In this document: positions 6,781-10,367 of the stretch, one piece after another
Layout: each line of letters starts with the position of its first letter
How positions within the stretch are numbered: position 1 is the first letter of the stretch
Virus record (IMG/VR): IMGVR_UViG_3300033553_000838
Location: 1-37,187 of that record
Direction: 5' to 3' (one strand)
Origin: a virus
DNA: 37,187 bases
Made by a program: the position numbers and the translations under genes
Notes under the pieces: generated by a model
The model's input: the letters and a program-made list of their open reading frames with translations, nothing else
What the model was told of the DNA's origin: nothing
Databases searched by the model: none

Positions 6781-7143
6781 ATGAACAAAGCAATCAACTT
6801 TGTAATACCAGAACCAAAAGAAGGTGAGATCTACGCTGGAACCATCATCAATCCTGATGGCACTGGGAAACACACCTTTCTACTGCCCGGCGACAACGAC
6901 GATGCCGACTGGCAGACCCAGATGGACTGGGCCGCATCCATCGGCGGCGAGCTGCCGGATCGCGTGCAGCAAGCCATGCTCTACAAGCACCTGCCTGAGC
7001 TTTTCCAGAAGGATTGGTACTGGTCTAGCGAGCAGCGCGGCTCCGGTTCCGCTTGGGTTCAGGACTTCTACGACGGCAGCCAGGATTGGTACAGCACCTT
7101 CTTCAAGTGCCGCGCTAGAGCCGTCCGCAGCGTATCCCTTTAA
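6781..7143 (+). CDS. DGR target protein 1 (DUF1566-type C-type-lectin-like variable protein)
   Basis: 120 residues with AAGGAG 7 bases before the ATG. The fold matches the DUF1566/formylglycine-type C-lectin family used as scaffold by DGR targets: 'HTFLLPGDNDDADWQTQMDW', 'GGELPDRVQQAMLYKHL', 'DWYWSSEQ', and the C-terminal strand 'FKCRARAVRS'. Residues about 85-116 are encoded by variable repeat 1. The ten positions that are Asn codons in the template read V, D, Y, D, S, D, Y, S, F, F here. There is no signal peptide or membrane segment and no second domain, so the protein is almost only the lectin-like module. What it binds is unknown. It lies directly before a paralogous target gene. Confidence 0.88.
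   Translation: MNKAINFVIPEPKEGEIYAGTIINPDGTGKHTFLLPGDNDDADWQTQMDWAASIGGELPDRVQQAMLYKHLPELFQKDWYWSSEQRGSGSAWVQDFYDGSQDWYSTFFKCRARAVRSVSL
7033..7130 (+). repeat. DGR variable repeat 1 (VR1)
   Basis: 98-nt repeat at the 3' end of the first target gene. Compared base by base with the template repeat it has no gaps and 13 differences, at repeat positions 25, 26, 31, 37, 40, 47, 52, 58, 62, 67, 68, 70 and 71. In every case the template base is A. The first 24 and last 27 bases are identical to the template; the invariant 3' block corresponds to the initiation-of-mutagenic-homology end. Confidence 0.95.
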
Positions 7144-7173
7144 CACTTCAGCATTCATCAATTGGAGATCGCA

Positions 7174-7545
7174 ATGAACAACGCAAAGAACGAATTCCTG
7201 AAATCCCTGCTCAAGGCAGGAGAAGAGTATGGCGGCCTGCTATTGGGCAAGGACGGCGAGCCAGATCAGCACATCGTATTACTTCCCGGCGAGGCACAAG
7301 CCGTGAACTGGGACGATGCCAAGAAATTCGCCGCCGACGCAGGCGGTGAACTGCCAACGCGCCGCGAACAAGCACTGCTGTTCGCCAACCTGCCTGAGCA
7401 TTTCACACCGAACTGGTATTGGTCTGGCGCGCAGCGCGGCTCCGGTTCCGCTTGGGTTCAGGACTTCGACATCGGCTACCAGCTTTGGAACTTCACCAGC
7501 TTCAAGTGCCGCGCTAGAGCCGTCCGCAGATCAGTAGCCATTTAA
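7174..7545 (+). CDS. DGR target protein 2 (DUF1566-type C-type-lectin-like variable protein)
   Basis: 123 residues, paralogue of the preceding gene: 'HIVLLPGEAQAVNWDDAKKF', 'GGELPTRREQALLFANLPEH', 'NWYWSGAQ', then the variable part and 'FKCRARAVRRS'. I prefer the ATG at 7174, with GGAG 6-7 bases upstream, over the in-frame TTG at 7162. The ten template Asn positions read V, D, D, I, Y, L, N, F, S, F. Like target 1 it has no export signal. The invariant first half has diverged well away from target 1, so this is not a very recent duplication, whereas the repeat ends are identical, as expected from repeated template copying. Confidence 0.88.
   Translation: MNNAKNEFLKSLLKAGEEYGGLLLGKDGEPDQHIVLLPGEAQAVNWDDAKKFAADAGGELPTRREQALLFANLPEHFTPNWYWSGAQRGSGSAWVQDFDIGYQLWNFTSFKCRARAVRRSVAI
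7432..7529 (+). repeat. DGR variable repeat 2 (VR2)
   Basis: 98-nt repeat ending the second target gene, gap-free against the template. It has 13 differences at repeat positions 25, 26, 31, 37, 41, 46, 52, 53, 61, 62, 68, 70 and 71, all at template adenines. Nine of these positions are also changed in VR1; five of those nine carry the same base in both. Identity with the template extends slightly past the core on both sides (CG before and AT after). Confidence 0.95.
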
Positions 7546-7570
7546 CGATTCAATAATTCATTTATTCAGC

Positions 7571-7939
7571 ATGGCAATCACCTCAGAACTGCCCATATAC
7601 AAAGTGGCCTACGACCTACTCGGCGTCATCACGGATCTGTCTGCAAATATGCGGAGGGATTTCAAGCAAAGCTTAGGCGGCAAATTGCGTGATGAGTGCG
7701 TAGAGATCGTGACGCTCATCTTCCGCGCTAACTGCGCTAGGGAGAAAGCGCCACATCTCGACGCGCTGATCGAGCGGTTGCAGGTTGCCGAGTTGCTGTT
7801 GCGTATATCGCGCGACAAGCTGCTCATCTCGACCAGCCAGTACGCCAAGGCTGTCGCGTTGACCGACAAGGTCGGCAAGCAGGCTGGGGGATGGCGCAAA
7901 TACGCAATGTCGCCCGCTTCGTCAGGGTCAAGGCCATGA
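7571..7939 (+). CDS. avd: DGR accessory variability determinant (Avd)
   Basis: 122-residue, all-helical basic protein in the position and size of Avd (128 aa in the Bordetella phage BPP-1 element). Avd is a pentameric four-helix-bundle protein that binds the reverse transcriptase and the template RNA and is needed for mutagenic cDNA synthesis. Features include 'IYKVAYDLLGVITDLSANM', 'LRDECVEIVTLIFRANCARE', and a helix with 'LERLQVAELLLRISRDKLL'. It belongs to the wider S23 / bAvd helical family. It sits between VR2 and TR/RT, and its stop overlaps an ATG of the reverse transcriptase frame (ATGA). Confidence 0.88.
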   Translation: MAITSELPIYKVAYDLLGVITDLSANMRRDFKQSLGGKLRDECVEIVTLIFRANCAREKAPHLDALIERLQVAELLLRISRDKLLISTSQYAKAVALTDKVGKQAGGWRKYAMSPASSGSRP

Positions 7940-9336
7940 CGACTGTGCGAAAAGTTGATCTGGTCGTGCCGCTGGCCACACAGGCCACCGCCATGCGCAC
8001 CGCAGATACCGCTGGGCTAGATACCCAAGGCAGGTCTGGCGCAGTTTCCTTGCTGACCGTCTATAGCGGTCGCCGAGGCGACGTAGAAAGCACGATACAT
8101 CGCAGCGCGGCTCCGGTTCCGCTTGGAATCAGAACTTCAACAACGGCAACCAGAATTGGAACAACACCAACAACAAGTGCCGCGCTAGAGCCGTCCGCAG
8201 ATGAACAAACGCGCCACCATGCTGAATTCTCTTTTGAAGAGTTGGTACAAGCCTATCTCGACTGTCGCCGCACCAAGCGCAACAGTGCCAGCGCATTGGC
8301 TTTCGAGACGAATCTGGAACGTAACCTATGTCGTCTGAACGATGAACTGCTGGAAGGCCGCTATCAGCCCGGCAAGAGCATCTGCTTCGTCATCACCAGA
8401 CCAAAACTACGTGAAGTATGGGCCGCAGAGTTCCGTGACCGCATCGTGCATCACCTGCTTTACAACCGCATCGCACCTCGCTTCTACGCAGGATTCATCG
8501 CAGATTCATGCGCCTGCATTCCCGGTCGCGGCACACTGTATGGCGCGAAGCGTCTGGAAGCGAAGATCCGCAGCATCACCCAGAATTGGAGCCAGCCCGC
8601 GCATTACCTGAAGCTGGATCTCGCCAACTTCTTCGTTAGCATCGACAAGCGCGTGGTGCGCCAACTGTTGGCCAAGCGTGTAGATGGCTGGTGGCTGCAA
8701 TTGGCCGAGCAGGTGCTGTTCCACGATCCGCGCCAAGACTTCGAGCTGCGCGGCGATCCGGATCTGCTCGCCCGCGTCCCTGCGCATAAGCGCCTTACCA
8801 GCCAGCCAGCGCACCTCGGCCTGCCCATTGGCAACCTGAGCAGCCAGTTCTTCGCCAACGTCTATTTGGACTTGATGGATCAGTTCATCAAGCACGAATT
8901 GCACTGCAAGCACTACATCCGCTACGTCGATGACTTTCTGTTGTTGCATACGTCACCGCAGTGGCTGAACGCCGCGAAGTGGGAGATCGAGGAGTTCCTA
9001 CGCGACAACCTCGGGGCGCGCATCAATCCCAGCAAGACCATCCTGCAACCGATAGAACGCGGTGTGGACTTCGTGGGCCAAGTCGTTAAACCGTGGCGCA
9101 GATATACCCGCCGCCGCACGTTTAACGATGCCTTGAGCCGCGCTGCGCAAATCCCGGCACATGAGTTGTTCGAGACCGCAAACAGCTACTTCGGCCTGCT
9201 GCGCCAATCTACGCATAGCCACCGCGACCGCACGATGCTGGCCAATGTCCTGCGCCATCGCGGCCACTGCATCAACAAGGATTTAACCAAGACGTATAGG
9301 CAATCAACCAAGGGAGGCTCCAATGGCAACCAGTAA
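7936..9336 (+). CDS. DGR reverse transcriptase (frame also reads through the template repeat)
   Basis: 466 residues if started at the ATG overlapping the avd stop. The RT domain begins about residue 98 ('FSFEELVQAYLDCRR'). Catalytic motif A is 'LKLDLANFF' with D228, and the active site is 'YVDD' at 330-333. The 'IGNLSSQ' motif (298-304) is the (I/L/V)GxxxSQ signature that separates DGR enzymes from group II intron RTs. 'FRDRIVHHLLYNRIAPRF' and 'KHYIRYVDDFLLLH' are also typical. There is no ATG or GTG in this frame between 7993 and the RT domain, and a TTG at 8242 would cut into it. So translation either starts upstream (7936 is best by coupling; 7891 and 7993 are alternatives) and reads through TR, or the region has a frameshift. 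Confidence 0.9.
   Translation: MTTVRKVDLVVPLATQATAMRTADTAGLDTQGRSGAVSLLTVYSGRRGDVESTIHRSAAPVPLGIRTSTTATRIGTTPTTSAALEPSADEQTRHHAEFSFEELVQAYLDCRRTKRNSASALAFETNLERNLCRLNDELLEGRYQPGKSICFVITRPKLREVWAAEFRDRIVHHLLYNRIAPRFYAGFIADSCACIPGRGTLYGAKRLEAKIRSITQNWSQPAHYLKLDLANFFVSIDKRVVRQLLAKRVDGWWLQLAEQVLFHDPRQDFELRGDPDLLARVPAHKRLTSQPAHLGLPIGNLSSQFFANVYLDLMDQFIKHELHCKHYIRYVDDFLLLHTSPQWLNAAKWEIEEFLRDNLGARINPSKTILQPIERGVDFVGQVVKPWRRYTRRRTFNDALSRAAQIPAHELFETANSYFGLLRQSTHSHRDRTMLANVLRHRGHCINKDLTKTYRQSTKGGSNGNQ
8103..8200 (+). repeat. DGR template repeat (TR)
   Basis: 98-nt template between avd and the RT domain. In the frame used by the targets it reads QRGSGSAW, then a core with ten Asn codons (AAC/AAT), then KCRARAVR. 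Asn codons are the usual DGR design, because adenine mutation of AAY gives up to 15 residues and never a stop. It contains 29 adenines, 17 of which are changed in at least one VR. It is open in the RT frame as well. A small hairpin (GTCGC/GCGAC, 8069-8082) lies just upstream and may belong to the template RNA. Confidence 0.95.
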
Positions 9337-9851: not shown

Positions 9852-10367
9852 ATGGCACCAAAGACCCGCATCAAAGCAAAAGCCCAAGTAAACATCCCGC
9901 AAACCAAGGATGAGGCCGCACGCGACATCCGCTCCATCGGCGACGCGCAGCGCAACCTGCTGCGCACCACCGCCGAGATGAATGACGCCATCGCCCACAT
10001 CACCGCGACCTACCAGCCCGTGCTGGAGACCATCGGAGACGACCTCAAAAAGCTACAGGAAGGCGTGCAGTTCTACTGCGAAGCCAACCGCGACGAACTG
10101 TGCGGAAAAGGTAAGACCGCCAACCTCGTCACAGGCGAAGTGCAATGGCGTCAACGCCCCCCCAGCGTGCGTGTGACAGGTGCCGAGAGTGTCATCGAGA
10201 CACTGCAACGCCTCGGCTTGAGCCAGTTCGTGCGCGAGAAGCTGGAAGTGAATAAAGAAGCCATCCTCAACGACCCAGACGGCGTGAAGGGCGTGGCAGG
10301 CATCACCGTCGTGACAGGCGTTGAGGATTTTGTGATCACGCCGTTCGAGCAGGAAGTAGCTGCTTAA
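9852..10367 (+). CDS. gam: Host-nuclease inhibitor Gam
   Basis: 171 residues, the length of Mu Gam (174 aa). Gam is a Ku-like protein that dimerises on double-stranded DNA ends and shields them from host exonucleases. Recognisable parts are the early helix 'DEAARDIRSIGDAQRNLLRT', the long coiled-coil helices to about residue 75, 'KTANLVTGEVQWRQRPPSVR' and the C-terminal 'LNDPDGVKGVAGITVVTGVE'. GGAG lies 7-8 bases before the ATG. Position between the accessory early genes and gemA matches Mu. Confidence 0.92.
   Translation: MAPKTRIKAKAQVNIPQTKDEAARDIRSIGDAQRNLLRTTAEMNDAIAHITATYQPVLETIGDDLKKLQEGVQFYCEANRDELCGKGKTANLVTGEVQWRQRPPSVRVTGAESVIETLQRLGLSQFVREKLEVNKEAILNDPDGVKGVAGITVVTGVEDFVITPFEQEVAA

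Follow-up and report, generated by a model that had tools for sequence, protein, structure and literature searches.

Diversity-generating retroelements (DGRs) are understood mechanistically mainly from phage BPP-1, whose priming RNA is situated on the 3' side of the template. The locus described here, found in a viral sequence of 37,187 nt (IMG/VR record IMGVR_UViG_3300033553_000838, positions 1 to 37,187, one strand; hereafter the window), raises the question of how a template is organized with respect to the structured RNA beside it and to the gene of the reverse transcriptase (RT). Based on the evidence presented below, it is likely that the window carries a DGR of a 5'-leader type, in which one template serves two targets in a Mu-like prophage and would at the same time be coding sequence of the RT. 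The DGR as an element, the overlap of template repeat (TR) and RT open reading frame (ORF) as an annotation class, and the RT-15 RNA motif are already known. Conversely, the literature searched yielded no account of the link between RT-15 and TR, of the covarying helix that joins them or of evidence that the template is translated; an earlier notice of these points is possible.

One template and two targets in a Mu-like prophage

The assignment of the window to a Mu-like transposable phage, made in the preliminary description, was borne out by Pfam and PHROG profile searches, which detected genes for tail sheath, baseplate hub and tail fibre in addition to the transposase and Gam (Table 1), and the DGR is located in the early region of this prophage. 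TR and each of the two variable repeats (VRs) measure 98 nt and align without gaps, and direct alignment reproduced the 13 + 13 mismatches reported previously, 26 of 26 at TR adenines; adenine makes up 29 of the 98 TR bases, and (29/98)^26 is about 2e-14. The identity between TR and VR2 reaches further, spanning 8101-8202. In the target frame TR reads QRGSGSAWNQNFNNGNQNWNNTNNKCRARAVR, and all 26 changes fall within its ten Asn (AAY) codons, as described before. Both VRs sit at the 3' ends of C-type-lectin-like target genes. For target gene 1 the Pfam Lcl_C match (E 0.0019) was below the cut-off and phrog_4245 matched at 5e-8, while the AlphaFold2 model of target gene 2 (pLDDT 96.5) had as its best PDB match the C-terminal domain of Legionella Lcl (8q4e, E 3.7e-5). 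A search of the host genome revealed no target beyond these two genes.

Table 1. Coordinates of the DGR and neighbouring features (positions in the window unless another locus is named)
Feature	Position	Strand	Evidence or remark
Mu-type transposase	771-2882
Target gene 1	6781..7143	+	120 aa, C-type-lectin-like (Lcl_C/DUF1566-like), VR1 at 3' end
VR1	7033..7130	+	13 mismatches to TR, all at TR A
Target gene 2	7174..7545	+	123 aa, C-type-lectin-like, VR2 at 3' end
VR2	7432..7529	+	13 mismatches to TR, all at TR A
avd (accessory variability determinant)	7571..7939	+	bAvd Pfam 8.2e-12; PHROG Avd 2e-31
RT-15 structured RNA (Rfam RF03018), putative 5' leader of template RNA	7908..8102	+	163.9 bits
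RT reading frame	7936..9336	+	466 aa; ATG overlaps avd stop (ATGA, 7936-7939)
Helix 5' strand GTTGATCTG in RT-15	7954..7962	+	covariation, 82 + 123 loci
TR	8103..8200	+	template repeat; simultaneously putative in-frame RT coding sequence
Helix 3' strand CAGATGAAC at TR 3' boundary	8198..8206	+	covariation
Mu Gam	9852-10367
DNA methyltransferase insert (phrog_954)	L004:3474-3980		PHROG 7e-70

Avd and an RT with the motifs IGNLSSQ and YVDD had been noted next to the repeats, and both profile matches and motifs are present: the RT matched RVT_1 at 3e-13 and the PHROG RT family at 3e-111, it carries the SQ motif and YxDD typical of the DGR clade, and Avd is encoded by many, not all, DGRs. Like the genes for Avd and RT, those for both targets are intact. 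Altogether, the window and its relatives support the view that this is a complete DGR and that both targets have been diversified by adenine-specific retrohoming.

RT searches yielded 80 viral and 32 genome loci, and a second set of 123 loci was fetched independently by means of the RT-15 DNA. The comparison of VRs among relatives, suggested earlier as a check, showed that adenine changes dominate, with 1999 of 2026 mismatches at TR adenines (pooled, 163 VRs). In two related loci (L024 and L025) RT, TR and flanks are identical and one VR differs at 12 of 24 adenine sites and at 0 of 56 other sites. To judge from such comparisons, DGRs of this clade are active in nature, and the DGR of the phage in the window would probably be active as well. 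In another locus (L046:3256-3346) a VR has only two differences from TR, both at adenines, as if it had been recently rewritten.

Most loci of this DGR clade (53 of 71 non-redundant loci) have two VRs upstream of avd. A single template serving two targets is thus the norm here, a two-target DGR is in itself ordinary, and DGRs with two VRs were already listed in 2012 (PMC3521204). That this layout is standard was missed in the preliminary description, as were the RT-15 RNA 5' of TR, the pairing of the TR 3' end and the passage of the RT frame through the template. In the window VR1 and VR2 share their outcome at five adenines (Val in the first Asn codon, Asp in the second and Phe in the last), which may reflect selection for residues of the fold or exchange between the two target genes.

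The RT-15 RNA and its predicted pairing with the template boundary

The 163-nt spacer between avd and TR corresponds to RT-15, which in the window matches the full model (1-192) at 163.9 bits against a gathering score of 82, is a full-length member of the Rfam family and ends one base before TR. In relatives RT-15 also lies 5' of TR and ends no more than a few bases from where TR begins. Among a class sample of 369 genomes the RT-15 scan found the copy in the window alone. No Rfam match was obtained 3' of TR in the window, and synonymous or third codon sites in the RT 5' end showed no excess conservation that would point to a BPP-1-like RNA there; these third positions are not unusually conserved and so give no hint of a further RNA element on that side of TR. 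RT-15 reportedly has its source in a paper by Weinberg from 2017. An "RT-15 RNA" was not mentioned in the literature searched, and prior notice in Weinberg 2017 or Wu 2018 is possible.

In the Rfam structure of RT-15 an AATCTG stretch is unpaired and the model stops at TR. Here, by comparison, the RNA is joined to TR, predicted to form a helix with the 3' end of TR, and located inside the RT reading frame. The conserved single-stranded stretch of RT-15 reads NNN(A/G)ATCTG and the TR end reads CAGAT followed by variable bases, so that a helix of nine pairs may be drawn, eight of which form in the window together with one G.G mismatch. Across 82 loci pairs 1-5 are nearly invariant and pair 6 is canonical in 82 of 82 (T-A in 29, C-G in 24, G-C in 22, A-T in 4 and T-G in 3); shifted registers and permutations fall short of this pairing, and for pairs 5-8 a count of 263 was obtained versus a permutation maximum of 217. 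The second set agreed, with pair 6 canonical in 115 of 123 loci and a count of 358 versus a permutation maximum of 288; three of the eight exceptions could re-pair via a one-base bulge. Mapped on the RT tree, 14 changes affect the left base of pair 6 and 13 the right base, while jointly the pair changes only 15 times. These change counts are given in place of an independent-pairs test, which did not reach significance on supported branches, where pairs were too few.

At a more distant locus (L111) both strands are altered, ATCATTTG with CAAATGAT, as an 8-bp complement at the TR boundary, and an 8-bp complement is likewise found at the TR boundary of Bacteroides phages F2/F4 (GTTATCTG with CAGATAAC). 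The homology between TR and VR ends mostly inside the helix, the first mismatch lying 3-7 nt past the first base of the helix in 148 of 163 VRs. The covariation thus supports the pairing of the leader with the TR 3' boundary, which is predicted to close the template into a loop.

The RT reading frame across leader and template

The RT ORF extends upstream beyond TR: the frame is open from inside avd across the entire TR, and RT-15 and TR would encode the first ~93 residues of the RT. Between TR and the RT helix the window has no ATG, GTG or TTG, and the sole start candidate nearby, TTG 8242, would remove part of the conserved RT start. A start codon after TR is absent in 64 of the 71 non-redundant loci and absent both within and after TR in 24, while a start overlapping the avd stop is present in 50. 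An open frame alone is weak evidence of translation, as the brt frame of BPP-1 likewise stays open for a long way upstream. Stop codons in the avd-TR spacer occur in the RT frame at 6 of 69 loci, and in the other two frames at 66 and 64.

Codon-position bias in the leader is weak (0.098, 0.085, 0.121) because all positions of the RNA are conserved, and for this reason the phase of insertions and deletions was used as the test of translation. Without coding constraint two thirds of length changes are expected to alter the phase. The length of one RT-15 segment changed 17 times on the RT tree with one phase change, and the TR-to-RT distance 24 times, again with one. A more upstream RT-15 segment is laxer, with 4 phase changes among 14 changes in length, which is what an RT start further downstream would lead one to expect.

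In the second set, the RT motif is in the frame continuous with TR in 114 of 123 loci and in other frames in none. At the loci with a stop in this frame upstream of TR, TR itself contains an in-frame ATG in 29 of 29 cases, versus 43 of the 94 open loci. At one locus (L004) TR and RT are separated by an inserted gene, identified as a DNA methyltransferase by its PHROG match only, with no Pfam match. This gene continues the TR frame as an in-frame fusion, and behind it the RT has acquired a Shine-Dalgarno sequence and an ATG of its own. The simplest reading of these comparisons is that ribosomes traverse the template in the course of RT synthesis; the extension peptide would have little function of its own. 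AlphaFold2 predicts residues 1-93 to be disordered (pLDDT <50), and with hardly any leader codon bias there is no sign that the N-terminal extension peptide matters. TR mismatches are highest at the third codon position of the target, suggesting that the TR-encoded RT residues are themselves not selected. The template would therefore be protein-coding in two frames, the target frame via the VRs and the RT frame via TR itself.

TR/RT overlap was the basis of the "group 3" DGRs (Schillinger 2012, PMC3521204), an annotation class; here, by comparison, the frame through TR was tested by indel phase, start codons and the in-frame insertion. In Bacteroides phage BS-TP1 the annotated RT (L357:2719-4200) begins inside the end of avd and continues through TR. 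In Bacteroides phage F2 TR is spanned by an ORF of 81 aa (L120:4747-4992) whose stop codon overlaps that of the RT start (ATGA), which would be another form of translation across the template.

A model for the template RNA and its alternatives

The DGR of BPP-1 (NC_005357; Rfam RF03022, Phage_DGR) shares with that of the window avd, TR, a DGR-type RT, a target with the C-type-lectin fold, adenine-specific differences between TR and VR, and an RNA structure beside TR. The arrangement differs: in BPP-1 TR abuts avd and is followed by a structured spacer of 144 nt and then by brt with its own start, whereas in the window the 163-nt RT-15 leader precedes TR and the RT domain follows directly with no start codon. 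With the same Rfam search as used for the window, the Phage_DGR RNA of BPP-1 and the RT-14 RNA of BalMu-1 were both placed 3' of TR. BPP-1 also requires a DNA hairpin after VR (PMC3240598). The test used here recovered that hairpin; after VR1 it found no perfect stem of at least 5 bp and after VR2 only a 5-bp A/T stem, so that no perfect hairpin of at least 6 bp follows either VR. Stems of at least 7 bp after VR occur in 12 of 137 VRs of the clade. Thus, neither a structured spacer 3' of TR nor a hairpin or cruciform after VR is found in the window, and the absence of the hairpin here, together with its rarity in the clade, suggests that target recognition may also differ from that of BPP-1.

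Based on these data, a model can be proposed in which a single transcript would hold avd, the RT-15 leader, TR and RT, the template being the 5' part of the RT gene. Having finished avd, ribosomes would reinitiate at the ATG that overlaps its stop and read on across RT-15 and TR into the RT, as the comparative evidence indicates. The leader would fold directly 5' of TR, its single-stranded part pairing with the TR 3' boundary to form a template loop. By analogy with BPP-1, RT and Avd would copy TR from this boundary, misreading adenines (the specificity is evident from the repeats), and the cDNA would replace VR1 or VR2. In BPP-1 an adenine of the 3' spacer primes the cDNA at the TR 3' junction (PMC12875486); the leader may do the job of that spacer, recruiting RT-Avd, to which it would bind, and setting or priming the cDNA start. 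Translation and copying of the template would presumably compete. Whether these loci represent a second class of DGR template RNA is evenly balanced in our judgement; in such a class the recruiting and priming RNA would lie 5' of the template and pair with its 3' end, the template RNA would be the RT messenger, and RT translation and template copying would be mutually exclusive, as a built-in switch or a cis-preference.

A very improbable alternative is that of an ordinary DGR of BPP-1 type, in which TR and leader are non-coding, a weak RT start lies near the domain and the upstream open frame is a compositional accident. It draws on the weak codon bias of the leader and on BPP-1 itself, where the brt frame is open for 699 nt upstream despite its own ATG. 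Opposed to it are the lack of an ATG, GTG or TTG where such a start would be needed, TTG 8242 cutting into the conserved start, the in-phase indels (17 + 24 events, one phase change each), which are unexplained in non-coding DNA, the L004 fusion, and the 29 of 29 loci with an ATG inside TR. That the copy in the window is decaying and inactive appears improbable: one mismatch in its helix would be in line with such a state, but all four genes (avd, RT and the two targets) are intact, and the VRs show no changes outside TR adenines, such as would accumulate after loss of activity.

A more serious contender, although we hold it to be rather less likely than not, is that the helix is real and controls translation, transcription termination or RNA stability, and that cDNA synthesis starts instead from nicked target DNA or from another RNA as primer. 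The helix spans coding sequence and might obstruct ribosomes, and target-primed initiation corresponds to an older model for BPP-1 (PMC3240598), yet the placement of the helix where TR/VR homology ends (148/163 VRs) suits a cDNA start point better than it would a general regulatory element. This alternative touches the priming step only.

If this large clade of phages of proteobacteria, and by their boundary complement the Bacteroides phages, use a 5' leader, the features essential to a DGR template RNA could be separated from those peculiar to BPP-1. The orphan Rfam family RT-15 would gain a job, the inconsistent annotation of RT start codons in this clade would be explained, and the cDNA start point would become a checkable prediction.

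Burkholderia phage Magia, Pseudomonas phage Cruim01 and Shewanella phage QDWS carry RT-15, avd and an RT of the same clade as the window (RT identity 67-69%) but encode an integrase and are not Mu-like. In the GenBank record of Cruim01 (L118:7693-7885) an RT-15 misc_RNA was already annotated beside the RT, with no DGR link. In the window both small lectin-like targets (6781-7545) lie between transposase and Gam, distant from the tail genes and with no visible anchor; in Magia, where lectin-fold DGR targets are annotated, these are likewise away from the tail genes.
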